Below, piece by piece: positions 2,297-10,126 of a DNA stretch of 64,000 nt. The DNA comes from Serratia liquefaciens (lineage in GTDB: Bacteria; Pseudomonadota; Gammaproteobacteria; Enterobacterales; Enterobacteriaceae): positions 1 through 64,000 of the forward strand of contig JAAXZN010000003.1 of assembly GCA_012719855.1 (NCBI GenBank), read 5' to 3'. Each line of letters starts with the position of its first letter. Positions within the stretch are counted from its first letter, which is position 1. The translations under genes and the position numbers were made by a program. Below the pieces are notes generated by a model. That model was not told the DNA's origin, searched no databases, and saw only the letters and a list, made by a program, of their open reading frames with translations.

Positions 2297-2938
2297 TCAG
2301 GCGTCGGGATAAACCTTCTCGTTAAACTCACAAAGATCTTCAATGATGCAGGAGCCACAGCGAGGTTTACGCGCGATGCAAGTATAGCGGCCGTGCAGGA
2401 TAAACCAGTGGTGACAATCGACCTTGAACTCGGCCGGCACCACCTTGAGTAGTTTCTCTTCAACCAGATCGACATTCTTGCCCGGAGCGAAACGGGTGCG
2501 ATTGCAAACGCGGAAGATATGGGTATCTACGGCAATGGTCGGCCAGCCAAAGGCGGTATTAAGCACCACGTTGGCGGTCTTGCGACCGACGCCAGGCAGG
2601 GCCTCCAGCGCGGCACGATCTTCCGGCACCTCGCCGCCGTGCAGCTCTAACAGCATGCGGCAGGTTTTGATCACGTTCTCGGCTTTGCTGTTAAACAGAC
2701 CGATAGTCTTGATGTAGTCTTTGACGCCGTCGACGCCCAGCGCCAGCAGGGCGGCCGGCGTATTGGCCACCGGATAAAGCTTGGCGGTGGCCTTGTTGAC
2801 GCTGACGTCGGTCGCCTGTGCGGAGAGCAGCACGGAAATCAGCAGTTCAAACGGCGTGCTGTACACCAGCTCCGTGGTCGGCTGCGGGTTGTTGTCGCGC
2901 AGCCGGGTAAGAATTTCCAGCCGTTTTTGCTTGTTCAT
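2297..2938 (-). CDS. nth: Endonuclease III (DNA glycosylase/AP lyase)
   Basis: Removes oxidised pyrimidines from DNA and cleaves the abasic site. It has 213 residues, close to the E. coli length. The helix-hairpin-helix motif LPGVGRKTANVV carries the catalytic Lys120, with catalytic Asp138 in AVDTH. A C-terminal [4Fe-4S] motif C187-x6-C194-x2-C197-x5-C203 is intact. Its ATG overlaps the rsxE stop (TGATG), so it is the last gene of the rsxDGE-nth operon, as in E. coli. Confidence 0.98.
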   Translation of the reverse strand: MNKQKRLEILTRLRDNNPQPTTELVYSTPFELLISVLLSAQATDVSVNKATAKLYPVANTPAALLALGVDGVKDYIKTIGLFNSKAENVIKTCRMLLELHGGEVPEDRAALEALPGVGRKTANVVLNTAFGWPTIAVDTHIFRVCNRTRFAPGKNVDLVEEKLLKVVPAEFKVDCHHWFILHGRYTCIARKPRCGSCIIEDLCEFNEKVYPDA

Positions 2939-3636
2939 CAGGCTTTCTCTGTCTGTCCTTGTCCCAGCGTCGGTTCAGCCAGCAAGGCTTTGGCCGTACG
3001 CGCTTTCATCCGTTCATCAATCAGGTATTTCAACGCCAACAGCAGGCCCAGGCCGATAAAGGCCCCCGGTGGCAGCATGGCCAACAGGAACGGGCTGTCA
3101 AAGTGAACCACTTCAATGCGCAATACCTTGGCCCAACTGCCCAACAGCATATCGGCACCGTCGAACAGGGTGCCGTTGCCCAGCAACTCACGCATCGCGC
3201 CTAGCGTCACCATCACGCCGGTTGCCCCCAGGCCGATTGCCATGCCGTCCAGCGCCGACAAACCGATGGGCTTTTTAGAGGCTACCGCTTCGGCGCGGCC
3301 AACCACGATACAGTTGGTGACGATCAGGGGAATAAAGATCCCCAGCGATTGATACAGGCCAAAGGCATAGGCATTGATCAACATCTGCACGATGCTGACC
3401 GCCGCTGCAATGATCATGACGTAAATGGGAATACGCACTTCATTCGGCACCCAGCGACGCACCGCGGAAATGGAGCCGTTGGTCAGCGTCAAAACCAGGG
3501 TGGTCGCCAGCCCAAGCCCGAGGGCGTTGGTCACGGTGGAGGTCACTGCCAGCAGCGGACACATCCCCAGCAACTGCACCAGTGCGGAGTTGTTCTTCCA
3601 CAACCCCTGGACAATCAGATCTTTGGCTTCACTCAT
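2938..3636 (-). CDS. rsxE: Electron transport complex subunit RsxE
   Basis: Integral membrane subunit of the Rsx/Rnf complex (NqrD/RnfE family, about 6 TM segments) that keeps SoxR reduced in E. coli. The 232-residue sequence starts [16 protein letters not shown] and contains the conserved GMCPLLAVT and [17 protein letters not shown] segments. The start at 3636 is favoured because its ATG overlaps the rsxG stop (ATGA) and aligns with E. coli RsxE; a five-residue extension exists. It is tightly coupled to rsxG and nth. Confidence 0.97.
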
Positions 3637-4262
3637 TCGCTGGCTCCACACACGGGTAAGCTATCAAGTTTAGGCGGCAGCGTTTCCATATACAATGCCG
3701 TGCGCCGAACGGCGTTGACCACCGCGCGCGGTGTGATGGTTGCGCCGGTGAATTGATCGAACATACCGCCATCTTTCTTCACCGCCCAGCGTTTATCGTC
3801 CGGGCCTTCAATTTTCTGGCCGCTGAAGAACGAAATCCAGTTCGAGATGCGCAGCTCAATTTTATCGCCCAATCCGGGCGTTTCATGGTGTTCGACCACG
3901 CGGGTGCCCAGCACGGTGCCGTTGAAATCGGCACCGACCAGCAGCTGAATGGCGCCGGAATAGCCGTCCGGCGCGGTGGTTTCTACCGCGGCTGCCGTAG
4001 GTTGACCGTTTTTACGCGCCAGATACAGGCGGTGAGGGGCGCTGTTGCCCAGCGCCGGATCGCTGATCAGGAAGCACTCGGTCTGCATGTCGTTGTCGTA
4101 GTGTTCCGGTGGCACCACTTGGTCAAGCAGGGCTTTTTGCTGCAATGCCGCCTGGTGGGCGATGGTTTTTTGCGTCAGGCTATGCACCACCGCGGTCAGA
4201 CCGGTAGTCACTGCGGCAAACACCGCCAGCGTGGTGCCATGCTTTCTCATTGAATTCAGCAT
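3633..4262 (-). CDS. rsxG: Electron transport complex subunit RsxG (covalent FMN)
   Basis: Periplasm-facing flavoprotein of the Rsx/Rnf complex with one N-terminal TM anchor (about residues 9-27). The flavinylation motif T172-G-A-T175 in [10 protein letters not shown] is present; the second Thr carries phosphodiester-linked FMN in this family. It has 209 residues. Two tandem ATGs occur; the second (4262) is about 6 bases from AAGGAG and matches the E. coli start. It lies 9 bases after rsxD and overlaps rsxE. Confidence 0.97.
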
Positions 4263-4271
4263 CATGGCTCC

Positions 4272-5357
4272 TTAGCGATGGCCGTACACGCGAGGCTGCG
4301 TGTAGTGGTCGATGAGCGGTACGGTAATGTTGGCCAGCAGAACGGCGAAGGCAACGCCGTCCGGGTAGCCGCCATAAACACGGATAAGCCACACCAGCAC
4401 GCCAATCAATGCGCCGTAAATCAGGCGGCCTTTTGGCGTGGTGGACGCGCTGACCGGGTCGGTAGCAATAAAGAAAGCTCCTAACATGCTGGCCCCGGAG
4501 AACAGGTGGATCAGCGGCGATGCCTGCTGCAGCGGGTCAAGCCACCAGGCCAGCCCGGAGCACACGGCGATAGCCGCCAACATGCTGAATGGGATCTGCC
4601 AGTGGATCAGGCGGCGAGCCAGCATAAACAGCCCGCCGGCCAGGAAACCGAGGTTGACCCATTGCCAACCGATACCGGCCAAAGCGCCGCCAAACAGCGG
4701 TTGCTGCAACACTTGTTCGACGCTATGACCACTGCGCAACCCGGTTTTGAAACCGTCCAGCGGGGTGGCCTGACTGATACCGTCGATGCCCATTTGCAGT
4801 TCATGAATGGTGGCGCCCTGCGAGGTATGGCCGCTGAAGATCGCCAGCAGGGTATCCTGGAACGACAGCGCGGTGGCTCGCAGTTCATCCGGCGGCAGCC
4901 AACTGGTCATTTGTACCGGGAAGGCGATCAGCAGCACCACGTAACCGACCATCGCCGGGTTGAACGGATTTTGCCCGAGGCCACCGTACAGCTGCTTGGC
5001 GATGACGATGGCAAAGAAAGTGCCGATGACAATCATCCACCAGGGTGCCAGTGGCGGCAGGCTGATACCCAGCAGCAAGGCGGTCAGCAGGGCAGAATTA
5101 TCTGCCAGACGCGTGCGAACCGGCAGCTTGCGCAAGGCGAGGATAGCGCCTTCGGCCAGCAGGGCGACCAGCATTGCCAGGGCGGTTTGAATCAGAGTGC
5201 CGTAGCCAAAGAACCACACTTGCGCCGCGACACCGGGAATACAAGCCAGCATGACCCACAGCATAATACGGCTGGTGCTCTGCTGGTTATGGGTGAAGGG
5301 GGAACTGGCGATGTGCAAGCCTTTGGCGGCTGTGGGTTGTACCGGCCTGAACTTCAT
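4272..5357 (-). CDS. rsxD: Electron transport complex subunit RsxD (covalent FMN)
   Basis: Membrane subunit of the Rsx/Rnf complex (NqrB/RnfD family), 361 residues with about 9-10 TM segments. The ISQATPLDG segment carries Thr198, equivalent to the FMN-bearing Thr187 of E. coli RsxD. Conserved [13 protein letters not shown] and [13 protein letters not shown] stretches are present. Start at 5357 (MKFRPVQP) adds about 11 residues compared with E. coli; the longer open frame to 5666 is rejected as non-homologous. Unlike in E. coli, rsxC is not directly upstream: a divergent Rob-like gene intervenes, so rsxD needs its own promoter in 5358-5737. Confidence 0.95.
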
Positions 5358-5737
5358 AGAATAACTACACCTATCTTTGCCGTACATCGGCAGGTTCAAC
5401 GCGCCTCTCAGAGGCGTCGCAGGAAAAATTATAGCGCTGCATTCTACCTGAATCACTGCGAGGGTAATACGTCTTAATTGTGCGGGTATTCGGCTTTTAG
5501 CACGGGGTGTACGCGAGGGGGAAATTTCTAATGGCGCAATTGGATTTTTTTTGCCGGCAAAAGCGGGGTAGCTTGGTCGGTCAAAAGAAAAATCGTCGGC
5601 ATCACTGGCCGGCAACAGGCGATAACCACTGGATTTGCAGGGTATTTTGGGGCCATTTTTTCGCACAAAATAACAACTTTTGCATAATCTATGTGGGTTA
5701 TTATCCCGTGTATTATTAAGTTAGTGAATGTACATTA
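5358..5737. other. Divergent intergenic region between rsxD and the Rob-like gene
   Basis: A 380-base non-coding region, AT-rich towards the right. It should contain both the rsxD promoter (minus) and the promoter of the Rob-like regulator (plus). A GCCGGCAA motif occurs twice (within 5554-5620). I could not define a marbox or promoter with confidence. Confidence 0.4.
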
Positions 5738-6631
5738 ATGACAAATGAAGATGTATTTTTTATTGAAGAACTGATTGAGTGGGTTGAGATACATCTGGAA
5801 AAACGGCCTAATCTGGACGAAGTCGCGCGTATTTCCGGCTATTCCAAGTGGCATCTGCAACGCAAATTTAAACGCATCACCGGTATTCAGCTCGCCACCT
5901 ATATTCGCGCACGTATTCTGACGCGTGCAGCGGTGGCACTGCGTATCACCCACCGGTCTATCATCGATATTTCAGACGAGCTGGGCTTTGATTCCCAACA
6001 AACCTTTACGCGCATGTTCAAACAGCGTTTCGACACAACGCCGAACCGGTATCGTTCGATGGACACGTGGGACGTAAAGAACCTGATGCCGCGCTTTAGT
6101 TTCGATGCCAATTTTGCCGCCGATTACTACCCTGAGATCAAACGCCTGACGCTGCCGGATATGCAGCTTGTGGGGGTTTCACGCCAGCTGGATTTCGCCT
6201 CGGAAACCGAGATCGAACATTCGTCCTGTATGGCGATGAAAGATGAAATTTTCACCGATTTCTTCCGCGGATTAAGCGTGGATTGCCATCGGGTGTACAG
6301 CATCCATTCAGTGCTCAAGCGGGGGGACACCGAATATTCGGCCACCCACATCATGGCGGTGGATCCCGAGAACAAACAGGATATTTTGTCGGGCTACCAG
6401 ATCGACACCATCCCTATAACCGGCCGTGAATATATTTCTATTAATCATCTGGGCACCGCGAAAGAATGTTCGCAATTCTTTGCTTATCTGATTACCCACG
6501 TGATGCCGGGACTGCGTGATAAAGTGAAAGGAAGCGTGGAGATGGAAATTATTCAACCCAAGGCGTGGAATCAGGACTCCAAAATGCGCCAGATTGACGT
6601 TGATTATACCTATCTAATTTCTATTGATTAG
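5738..6631 (+). CDS. AraC/XylS-family regulator of the Rob/SoxS/MarA type
   Basis: 297-residue transcription factor. Residues about 8-108 form the double helix-turn-helix DNA-binding domain of the MarA/SoxS/Rob group, including GYSKWHLQRKFKRITG (Rob has GYSKWHLQRMFKDVTG) and GFDSQQTFTRMFKQRF. Residues about 130-297 look like a GyrI-like effector-binding domain, the same architecture as Rob. The gene sits in reverse orientation between rsxC and rsxD, whose products reset SoxR in E. coli. A redox or stress regulatory link is therefore plausible but inferred. No good ribosome-binding site precedes the ATG. It is not the canonical rob locus. Confidence 0.85.
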   Translation: MTNEDVFFIEELIEWVEIHLEKRPNLDEVARISGYSKWHLQRKFKRITGIQLATYIRARILTRAAVALRITHRSIIDISDELGFDSQQTFTRMFKQRFDTTPNRYRSMDTWDVKNLMPRFSFDANFAADYYPEIKRLTLPDMQLVGVSRQLDFASETEIEHSSCMAMKDEIFTDFFRGLSVDCHRVYSIHSVLKRGDTEYSATHIMAVDPENKQDILSGYQIDTIPITGREYISINHLGTAKECSQFFAYLITHVMPGLRDKVKGSVEMEIIQPKAWNQDSKMRQIDVDYTYLISID

Positions 6632-6754
6632 GGCGCGACCCGAAGGGCGGGGCCATCTGAACGCGCCCTGTGTTACGAACCGACCGTTTGACCCACTCAC
6701 ACATCACGCGCTGGCGGCGCTCACGAATTCATTATTGAGTGACACAGCCAGGGC

Positions 6755-6775
6755 CGCCTTGCGTTTTGCAAGGCG
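6755..6775 (-). terminator. Hairpin between the Rob-like gene and rsxC ends
   Basis: CGCCTTGC-GTTTT-GCAAGGCG, a perfect 8-bp stem with 5-nt loop, lies in the convergent gap just past the rsxC stop. No clear T-run follows on either strand, so its terminator role is uncertain. Confidence 0.4.
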
Positions 6776-6785
6776 CCGCTTTCCG

Positions 6786-8897
6786 CTACTCTTTATCGGT
6801 TTCCGCCGTGGCCAGGTTTTGCTCGGCCTTTTTGGCCTTGACGCGCGCAATAGCTGCCGCAACCGCCGCCTTGCGTGGATCTTCTTCCTGCGCGGCAGTT
6901 ACCGGTTCTGTCGGCGATTCAACGGTTTCGGCCTGCTGGGCCGCTTTTTTGGCTTTGACCCGTGCCAATGCAGCGGCCACGGCTGCCTTGCGCGGATCTT
7001 CTTCCGGTGCCACAGCTATCGATTCAACAGGTGTTCCAACCGATTCGGCTTGCTGAGCAGCTTTCTTAGCTTTGACCCGTGCCAATGCAGCAGCCACGGC
7101 TGCCTTGCGCGGATCTTCTTCCGCTGCCACAGCTATCGGTTCGGCAGACGTTTCAACTGTTTCGGCTTGCTGAGCTTCTTTCTTGGCTTTAACCCGGGCT
7201 AACGCAGCAGCAACTGCAGCTTTACGTGGATCTTCGCCCTCTACAGCAGGAGACGTCGCTGGGGCGGCGGCTGCATCTTGCTGAGCACGACGTTCACGCG
7301 CCTGTGCTTTACGGGCTTCGCGGGCTGCGATCATCTCGCTATTGTCCGGAGCATCGCCGCTAATTGTTCCGGTTGCCGGCGCGGCATTTTTACTGCGCAC
7401 GCGGGCCAGGGCGGCTTGTACCGCATCCTGATCGCCGTCGGTCAATTTGACGGCCGCTTTCTTGTGACGCTCTTCGCGCGCCAGTTTTTCACGTTCCAGA
7501 CGAGCCAATTTGGCTTCGTAACGCGCCTTGGCTTCGGCGGTGCGCGCGGCTTCCTGATCGATGGCTTTGATTTCGGCCTTTTCCTGGCGATAGTACTGCA
7601 CCAGCGGAATATTGCTGGGGCAGACAAAGGCGCAGGCACCGCACTCAATGCAGTCGAACAGGTTATGTTTGCGGGCTTTTTCGTGTTCTTCGCCACGGCT
7701 GAACCAGTAAAGCTGCTGTGGCAACAGGCCTGCCGGGCAGGCATCAACACATAAACCGCAGCGAATGCAGGACTGTTCAGGTTCCTGAGGCGCCATTTCA
7801 GTGACGGAAGGGGCCAGAATACAGTTGCTGATTTTTACGATCGGCACGTTCAGCGCGGGCAGGGTGAAGCCCATCAGCGGGCCGCCCATGACCACCATTT
7901 GTTGGGCCTGCGGCTGGAAGCCGGCAAAGTTCAGCAGGTGCTGCACCGGCGTGCCGATGCGCGCCCACAGATTCCCCGGTTGGCTGAGCGCTTCACCGGT
8001 AAGGGTGACCACGCGCTCGATCAAGGGTTCGCCATCGACAATGGCGCGCTTGATGGCAAAGGCAGTCCCGACGTTTTGCATCAGCACGCCGATAGCGGAG
8101 GAGTGCTTGCCGTGCGGCACTTCCTTGCCGATCAGGATCTTGGTGAGCTGCTTGGCGCCGCCGGAAGGATATTTGGTTGGGATCACCCGCAGCGAGATGC
8201 CCGGTTGATCGCGCAATGCCAGTTTTAACGCTGCAATCGCTTCGGGCTTATTGTCCTCGATGCCGATCAGCGTCACTTTCGGCTGCAGCAGGTGACGCAG
8301 GATCTGGGTGCCTTCGATCACTTGATCGGCATGCTCCTGCATCAAACGGTCATCGGCAGTGATATAAGGCTCGCATTCCGCGGCATTGAGGATCAGCGTT
8401 TCTACCCCGTTCATGCCGCCCTGCAGCTTGCTGGCAGTGGGGAAACCTGCGCCACCCAAGCCGGCGATACCGGCCTGATGAATACGCTGGATCAGTTCAC
8501 CGGTAGGCAGTTGACGGTAATCCGCCACGGGTGCGCGTTCGCACCAACGGTCTTCGCCATCCGGCTGAATAATTACGCACAGTTCTGCCAGCCCTGAAGG
8601 GTGAGCGGTAATATGCGGTTTAATGGCGCTGATGGTACCGGAGGTCGGTGCGTGCACCGGCACGGTACGGCCGCGGCCGACGGTCAGCGGCTGGCCTTTC
8701 AGCACCTGCTCGCCGACTTTGACGCACAGCTCGCCTTCCGGTCCCAAATGCTGCTGCAAGGGGATCACAAAGGTGTCGGGCAGCGGGGCGATACGCAGCG
8801 GTACGCCGCTGGACTGGGTTTTCATTTCCGGGGGATGGATCCCGCCGTCGAAATCCCAAATCCGGTCTTTTTTGAAAGCGGCGAACAAATTAAGCAT
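6786..8897 (-). CDS. rsxC: Electron transport complex subunit RsxC with long Ala/Lys repeat tail
   Basis: NADH-binding, FMN/Fe-S peripheral subunit of the Rsx/Rnf complex (703 residues). The core carries a [12 protein letters not shown] nucleotide/FMN-binding segment (about residues 150-162). Two ferredoxin-type clusters, [12 protein letters not shown] and [12 protein letters not shown], lie near residues 375 and 416. The C-terminal third is a charged coiled region ending in 39-residue tandem repeats starting [19 protein letters not shown]. Such tails occur in gammaproteobacterial RsxC and vary in copy number. It overlaps rsxB by 8 bases. It is now the last gene of its transcript because rsxD is separated. 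Confidence 0.96.
6789..7235 (-). repeat. 117-bp tandem repeats inside rsxC
   Basis: Three full 39-residue units and a fourth shortened unit, each beginning [11 protein letters not shown](L/I)ARVKAKK. A more variable linker (e.g. [13 protein letters not shown]) separates them. The corresponding DNA repeats about every 117 bases and is highly similar between copies, so it is prone to copy-number change. Confidence 0.9.
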
Positions 8898-9462
8898 GTT
8901 GCTCCACGTGGATCACTTGCACCGGGATCGTCTTCATATCCCACTTCCAGTTGGCGGTAGTGGTGGCGACCGGTTTCATTTCAATACAATCGGTAGGGCA
9001 CGGTGCGACGCACAGGTCGCAGCCGGTACAAAGATCGGTAATCACGGTGTGCATGGCGCGGGTGGCGCCAACAATCGCATCCACCGGGCAGGCCTGAATG
9101 CACTTGGTGCAGCCGATGCAGTTGGCCTCATCAATATAAGCGACCTGGCGCACCGGCTCGGCGGCGGCTTCGCTGCCCAGCGGCTGCGGCTCGACGTTGA
9201 GCAATTCGGCCAATTTCAGCATCACTTGCTCGCCGCCGGGGGCGCATTTGTTGATCATCTCACCGTTGGCCACCGCCTCGGCGTAAGGGCGACATCCCGG
9301 GTAACCGCACTGGCCGCATTGGCTCTGCGGCAGGATCTCATCGACCTGCTCGGCCACCGGATCTTCTTCCACTTCAAAGCGGCGTGCGGCGAAGCCCAGC
9401 ACCAGCCCGAACAACAGGCCGAGGGCGCTGAGCGCAGCAATCGCAATCCATAACGCGGTCAT
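8890..9462 (-). CDS. rsxB: Electron transport complex iron-sulfur subunit RsxB
   Basis: 190-residue electron-carrying subunit of the Rsx/Rnf complex. An N-terminal membrane anchor (about residues 3-25) is followed by the [4Fe-4S] motif C49-x2-C52-x4-C57-x15-C73. Two ferredoxin-type clusters follow: [12 protein letters not shown] and [12 protein letters not shown]. The gene overlaps rsxC by 8 bases, and its ATG overlaps the rsxA stop by one base, so translation is likely coupled. Confidence 0.97.
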
Positions 9463-10043
9463 TAGAATTTCACCAGCCCGGTAAAGCCCATAAAGGCCAG
9501 AGACATCAACCCGGCAGTGATCAACGCGATGGAAGAACCACGAAATGGCGCAGGCACGTCGGCAACCGCCAGACGCTCACGGATCGCGGCGAACAGCACC
9601 ATGACCAGCGAAAAGCCGGCGGCGGCGCTGAAGCCATATACCGCAGACTGCAGGAAGTTGTAGCCGAGGTTGACGTTAAGCAACGCCACGCCAAGCACCG
9701 CGCAGTTGGTGGTGATCAGCGGCAGGAAGATGCCCAGCAAGCGATACAGTGCCGGGCTGGTTTTGCGTACCACCATCTCGGTAAATTGCACCACGACGGC
9801 GATCACCAAAATAAATGACAGCGTGCGCAGATACACCAGATCCAACGGAACCAGGATAAAGGTGTTGATCACCCAGGCGCTGACGGAGGCCAGCGTCATG
9901 ACAAAGGTGGTGGCCATCCCCATGCCGATGGCGCTTTCCAGTTTTTTGGAAACGCCGAGAAACGGGCACAGGCCGAGGAACTTCACCAGGACGAAGTTGT
10001 TCACCAGTACGGTGCCGACAAACAGGAGCAGGTATTCGGTCAT
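9462..10043 (-). CDS. rsxA: Electron transport complex subunit RsxA
   Basis: Integral membrane subunit (NqrE/RnfA family, 193 residues as in E. coli, about 6 TM segments). It contains [18 protein letters not shown] and [15 protein letters not shown], each with the paired Cys-containing half-helices typical of RnfA/RnfE. It is the first gene of the rsxABC transcript. The ATG at 10043 is preceded by AGGC at short spacing. Confidence 0.97.
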
Positions 10044-10126
10044 TGCGATGCCTAAAAAAATAAAAGCCGCCTATTATCGGGAATTGGCGGCCTGACCACA
10101 ACACAGTGATAGCAAGGTTATTGCTC

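Follow-up and report, generated by a model that had tools for sequence, protein, structure and literature searches.

In Escherichia coli, SoxS activates rsxABCDGE together with rseC and apbE, and Rsx reduces SoxR, according to the accessible text of a review (PMC12174285), with the relation between Rsx and SoxR also covered in the available part of a second source (PMC11729352). In Yersinia pestis, overexpression of the regulator RobA (y3723) increased drug and solvent tolerance and efflux-pump transcripts and left susceptibility to superoxide generators unaffected, as stated in the available extract of that report (PMC2500020). Here we analysed a 64,000-nucleotide stretch of Serratia liquefaciens DNA (contig JAAXZN010000003.1, positions 1 to 64,000; hereafter the window) in which a gene for a Rob-like AraC-family regulator of 297 amino acids lies within the rsx genes (5738..6631, plus strand). 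The genes and their order are those of rsxABCDGE-nth in E. coli K-12, where the run is continuous (on K-12 locus L080, rsxC runs to 6642 and rsxD begins at 6643), whereas in the window it is cut by the plus-strand regulator gene into rsxABC (10043-6786, minus strand) and rsxDGE-nth (5357-2297, minus strand), so that rsxC and rsxD are not contiguous. A preliminary description of this DNA had read the same order and strands, and the same contrast with E. coli, and both readings hold. With moderate confidence, we favour an explanation in which the regulator is an ancient insertion that split rsx transcription, activates its own gene in Serratia and acts mainly on general stress and efflux genes.

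The insertion is ancient and under purifying selection. In a scan of one genome per species, 30 loci matched the regulator; it adjoins rsxD in all 28 of the Serratia (18) and Yersinia (10) loci, with rsxC on the other flank in 21 and the remaining 7 stored loci ending short of rsxC. For the Hafnia and Citrobacter loci from the same scan, the match is confined to the DNA-binding domain and no rsx genes are seen. Among 392 genomes of the family, an orthologue (E up to 1e-60) was found in 17, the window's genome included, representing 6 of 154 genera, and rsxD and rsxC flank it in all 17. We assembled 45 loci for comparison, 30 Serratia-type and 15 Yersinia-type, with the window counted once and some species present twice. 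The regulator lies beside rsxD in every one of them, so the arrangement reflects neither chance nor misassembly, and it is full length in 43, the two others being a frameshift near the start and a copy in a record where the rsxC match is also broken. Compared with six other Serratia copies, the regulator of the window has a dN/dS of 0.043-0.096. A strain-specific or decaying insertion, which the preliminary description had entertained as the finding that would count against it, is ruled out by the 45 shared loci, 43 of them with a full-length gene, and by these dN/dS values.

Gap lengths distinguish carriers from other members of the family. In a 149-genome family sample, rsxD was found in 107 genomes, of which 99 were measurable for the rsxC–rsxD gap; the other 8 have the two genes on different contigs or strands. 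Beyond the rsxC frame lie 1211-1667 nt in the seven carriers, against no more than 134 nt in 89 of the 92 non-carriers. The three exceptions are G496 (510 nt), G408 (1924 nt, with the rsxC match cut short) and G520 (pieces far apart), and a search of the odd-gap non-carriers G496, G153 and G408 returned no regulator remnants at E up to 1. Because the gene occupies this position in all loci examined, we infer that a one-component regulator of the Rob/MarA/SoxS family entered rsx in the common ancestor of Serratia and Yersinia and then stayed.

The protein combines a MarA/SoxS/Rob-type DNA-binding domain (residues ~1-108) with a GyrI-like C-terminal domain (~126-297), and the Rob-type architecture first proposed for it is thus well founded. 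HTH_18 and HTH_AraC scored above their Pfam cut-offs and the GyrI-like match just below, both domains of the predicted model match by fold, including the GyrI-like C-terminal fold, and the best solved relative by sequence is Rob. The dual helix-turn-helix of the MarA/SoxS/Rob subfamily is present, its segments SGYSKWHLQR and GFDSQQTFTR being invariant in 23 orthologues and near-identical to those of Rob; with these recognition helices the regulator probably reads marbox-type DNA. Since the GyrI-like fold is that of multidrug-binding sensors, the C-terminal domain probably senses a ligand of lipophilic or drug-like character.

The regulator is nevertheless distinct from each named member of the family. 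It falls below the RobA equivalog cut-offs (205.2 bits against 380 and 181.1 against 426 for NF012228 and NF011701), and its 12 sampled orthologues form a 100/99 clade with the Rob rows elsewhere, in a tree in which many deeper forks are weak. A true Rob is encoded elsewhere in the window's genome. E. coli rob adjoins creA, as does Y. pestis robA (y3723), going by the part of its source available, which makes that gene, likewise of Rob type, a true Rob and not an orthologue of the regulator described here. At 117.9 bits against the NF007584 cut-off of 174, it is not SoxS either. Its DNA-binding domain is 52.0% identical to E. coli SoxS and 45.2% to MarA, and it differs from both by its second domain, by scores below both cut-offs and by its flanks, which are rsxC and rsxD rather than soxR or marR.

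The best mechanism that we infer is self-activation in Serratia, or activation by Rob/MarA kin, through a predicted marbox in the 380-bp divergent gap between regulator and rsxD. A marbox-like site, GCACAAAATAACAAC (5663..5677, plus strand), lies 75 nt before the regulator ATG in a class II position, followed by a likely -10 element, TATTAT (5699..5704, plus strand); positions of -10 elements and start sites were read by eye. We scored sites with a matrix built from all 33 MarA sites of enterotoxigenic E. coli (ETEC) in the table available from PMC5684230. GCACAAAATAACAAC was the best of 732 intergenic positions, yet only 49th of 127972 across the whole window; with an alternative matrix (32 of the 33 ETEC sites plus 45 Salmonella sites picked by eye) it ranked 12th. 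By score, then, the site is unremarkable, and what lifts it is its conservation and its fixed spacing to the -10. When 26 distinct Serratia-type rows were aligned, it tied as the most conserved 15-mer of 366, and with three variable bases allowed it is present in all 30 Serratia-type rows (exact in 24, with 1-2 changes in 6). In all 30, a TTAYTAT -10 candidate starts 20 nt past the marbox end, which places the marbox over the -35, as in class II promoters; the rules for class I and class II marboxes, including the reverse orientation of class I sites, are given in the available text of PMC10268841. The regulator would thus most likely activate its own gene via a class II marbox overlapping the -35.

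On the other side of the gene, the regulator and rsxC converge across a 154-bp gap in which a hairpin (6750..6780, no strand assigned; arms 6750-6762 and 6768-6780) may serve as a bidirectional terminator, and in many Serratia such a hairpin would insulate the two converging genes. In the window it has an 8-bp perfect stem, equalled in 2 of 300 shuffles, and a consensus fold of 12 hand-picked, trimmed Serratia-type rows comprises 11 pairs, of which 6 have changed on both sides.

Several results weigh against parts of this reading. A site ranking 49th of 127972 implies that about one-quarter of regions of this size hold an equally good one; GCACAAAATAACAAC comes first in its own intergenic region in only 20 of the 30 Serratia-type rows (second or third in 10) and is found in none of the 15 Yersinia-type rows; and the argument from marbox geometry was made after the fact. 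A promoter scan yielded 2 promoter-like sites against 2.3 in shuffles and chose a different -10 for the regulator, CATAAT at 5683-5688. In the structural model, the DNA-binding half has low confidence, with a mean pLDDT of ~51-57 over residues 1-50. For the hairpin, a perfect stem of at least 7 bp just before the rsxC stop is confined to 16 of the 24 Serratia-type rows in which the gap could be measured, leaving 8 without, and is absent from all 12 such Yersinia-type rows, three of which have just 4 nt between the converging stop codons. A terminator scan rejected the hairpin, finding no acceptable T run, and the role of bidirectional terminator is therefore putative and limited to Serratia. 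The structural comparison strengthens the case for a Rob-like fold and the hairpin count weakens that for the hairpin; for the overall explanation, the two roughly cancel.

The rsxDGE-nth genes probably have their own conserved promoter in the divergent region. A search that required only two cores, which read CGTATTAC and GGTAGAAT in the sense of rsxD, placed both within a block whose length is exactly 32 nt in 42 of 45 rows, spanning both groups. In the window, the conserved upstream element of this promoter is ATTAAGACGTATTAC, with CGTATTAC as its invariant core (5464..5478, minus strand), and the block ends in a likely -10, TAGAAT (5441..5446, minus strand); as a whole it resembles a sigma-70 promoter that combines an activator site and a poor -35. 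The general promoter scan did not pick this block. Each of five carrier genomes contains one exact match to ATTAANNCGTATTAC and no second exact copy of the element, and matches with at most one mismatch numbered 26 against 30 for a reversed control. Further upstream, a weak marbox-like site, ACACCCCGTGCTAAA (5496..5510, minus strand), is centred 69 nt before the assumed rsxD start; it is present in 10 of 45 rows, and thus not conserved, and its orientation is opposite to that of class I sites. Upstream of rsxA, we found no good marbox in the window and saw none in the aligned regions, and comparison by eye of the aligned rsxA and rsxD upstream regions revealed no motif common to the two. rsxABC and rsxDGE-nth would most likely form separate transcription units, the latter driven from the divergent region.

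These promoter features bear on whether the regulator has any link to the genes around it. It may be a passenger, inserted by chance and with no regulatory connection to rsx, conserved for its own stress and efflux role while rsx gained a promoter; we consider this possible, if doubtful. The only conserved marbox-like site being at the regulator's own promoter fits such a passenger, as do the other conserved elements upstream of rsxD and rsxA, and the retention of the arrangement in 45 of 45 loci speaks against it only weakly because neutral gene order can persist. The explanation that we favour, in which the regulator activates itself and acts on general stress and efflux genes, leaves room for a possible local effect on rsxDGE.

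The state of SoxR and SoxS in these genomes bears on both a local role and the SoxR loop; we scored the two proteins as absent when below the curated cut-offs of TIGR01950 (116.9) and NF007584 (174), respectively. The window's genome, given a completeness of 100 by the tool used, has no SoxR above TIGR01950 (the best match reaches 50 bits, the cut-off being 116.9), nor does any SoxS exceed the NF007584 cut-off. Across the 17 carriers, SoxR is above cut-off in 4 and SoxS in none, and an E. coli control exceeds both cut-offs. Within the 149-genome sample, one of the 7 carriers has SoxR above cut-off and none has SoxS; of 100 rsxD-bearing non-carriers, 55 have SoxR, 51 have SoxS and 45 have neither. 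As those 45 genomes also lack the regulator gene, a lack of SoxS accompanies the regulator without depending on it, and common descent by itself could account for the absence of SoxS from carriers.

Against this background, the regulator might be a local controller that activates the divergent rsxDGE-nth promoter in place of SoxS, with the pump answering to the C-terminal ligand and not to SoxR. We regard this as unlikely. All 45 rows have a shared divergent region, 295-667 bp long, that would allow it, the rsxD promoter has the conserved upstream element and poor -35 expected of an activated promoter, SoxS passes in none of the 17 carriers, SoxS is itself an activator of rsxABCDGE, rseC and apbE in the accessible text of the review (PMC12174285), and the weak marbox centred 69 nt before the presumed start of rsxD is seen in 10 of 45 rows. 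Set against these points, the conserved rsxD element is unlike a marbox; the weak site, absent in 35 of the 45 rows, runs forward, whereas class I sites are reverse according to the available text of PMC10268841; 45 of 100 rsxD-bearing non-carriers without SoxR and SoxS manage without the regulator gene as well; and no good marbox precedes rsxA in the window or was seen in the aligned rsxA upstream regions.

The preliminary description had placed the regulator inside a SoxR–SoxS–Rsx feedback circuit, for which E. coli offers a precedent (Rsx reducing SoxR and SoxS activating rsx, in the parts available of PMC12174285 and PMC11729352) and four carriers a SoxR above cut-off, but with SoxS in none of the 17 carriers, no SoxS-like gene beside SoxR at the one SoxR locus viewed by eye (L084) and both proteins below cut-off in the window's genome, the loop cannot, barring a strongly diverged SoxR, operate as stated in this organism and is highly improbable in general. 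What stands of that interpretation is the ancient splitting of rsx by a Rob/SoxS-type regulator; the feedback through SoxR does not. At L084, SoxR (1486-1956) lies, as judged by eye, between a LysR-type gene and a gene for a small membrane protein, and may act on these neighbours directly. The main targets of the regulator are most likely general mar/sox/rob stress and efflux genes rather than a SoxR loop.

The Yersinia literature contains candidates for the same protein. MarA47 and MarA48 are MarA-like proteins of Yersinia in the available parts of PMC6176095 and PMC8272246, one of which credits both with control of drug sensitivity and virulence. Where their N-terminal part aligns with E. 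coli MarA, four Yersinia orthologues of the regulator show 43.8-48.1% identity to it, and Yersinia Rob copies show 47-48%. These values fit the names MarA47 and MarA48, and the Rob copies fit equally well, so identity to MarA does not single the gene out. The Yersinia orthologue may be MarA47 or MarA48; the presumed locus tag, YPO2243, was found in no paper. If the orthologue is one of these proteins, its phenotype has already been published, which would fit the explanation favoured here and lower the novelty of the gene. Among the papers listed in searches of a literature that excludes most subscription journals, none appeared relevant to an AraC-type gene in rsx or rnf of Serratia or Yersinia.

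Rsx was named for reducing SoxR, yet SoxR is below cut-off in 51 of 107 rsxD-bearing genomes of the family sample and in 13 of 17 carriers. A lineage with rsx, a SoxS-like regulator inside it and no SoxS lends itself to the questions of what role Rsx has in the absence of SoxR and how the rsx genes are controlled, and the split makes it possible to test cleanly whether the halves of a single membrane complex are produced under different controls. Should a ligand-sensing regulator have taken over pump control in this SoxS-less lineage, driving rsxDGE-nth while rsxABC answers to a different promoter, which we think improbable, an Rnf-type redox pump and the DNA-repair enzyme encoded by nth would be coupled to a multidrug or membrane stress signal.

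The remaining genes of the locus, all on the minus strand, were named in two ways. NCBIfam equivalog matches identify rsxC (6786..8897; NF003454, 855 bits, cut-off 345), rsxD (4272..5357; NF002011, 599 bits, cut-off 415) and rsxG (3633..4265; NF002519, 345 bits, cut-off 178), and a subfamily match identifies rsxE (2938..3633; NF009070, 350 bits, cut-off 184), whose start is approximate (3651 or 3633). Order and matches to relatives, rather than family searches, gave rsxA (9462..10043) and rsxB (8890..9462), and position and matches to relatives gave nth (2297..2938). The first ~13 residues of RsxD (window 5318-5357) are unmatched in many other family genomes, in which alignments begin at residue 13-15. 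The C-terminal tail of RsxC (window 6786-7500) consists of near-identical repeats, and the length of the open RsxC frame varies widely across the family sample.

Other observations concern non-coding DNA. Upstream of rsxA (window 10044-10100), 9 Serratia and 5 Yersinia rows share a stretch of strong conservation around GATAATAGGCGGCTTT that differs from the rsxD promoter block. No structured RNA was found in 5300-6900 by an Rfam search with E up to 1. For the word TTAAGACGTATTAC, 6 matches with at most three mismatches occur in the window against 1.75 expected, a number reached by 0 of 100 shuffles; two of these six represent a single palindromic site, counted once on each strand. Finally, the 154 bp between the regulator and rsxC compares with 30-39 bp in many Serratia. 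The extra stretch, 6660-6750, is bounded by short inverted repeats (CTGTGTTAC/GTGACACAG), loci L009 and L014 carry a similar GGCTGCGTC...GACACARCC element, and the stretch looks like a small miniature mobile element.
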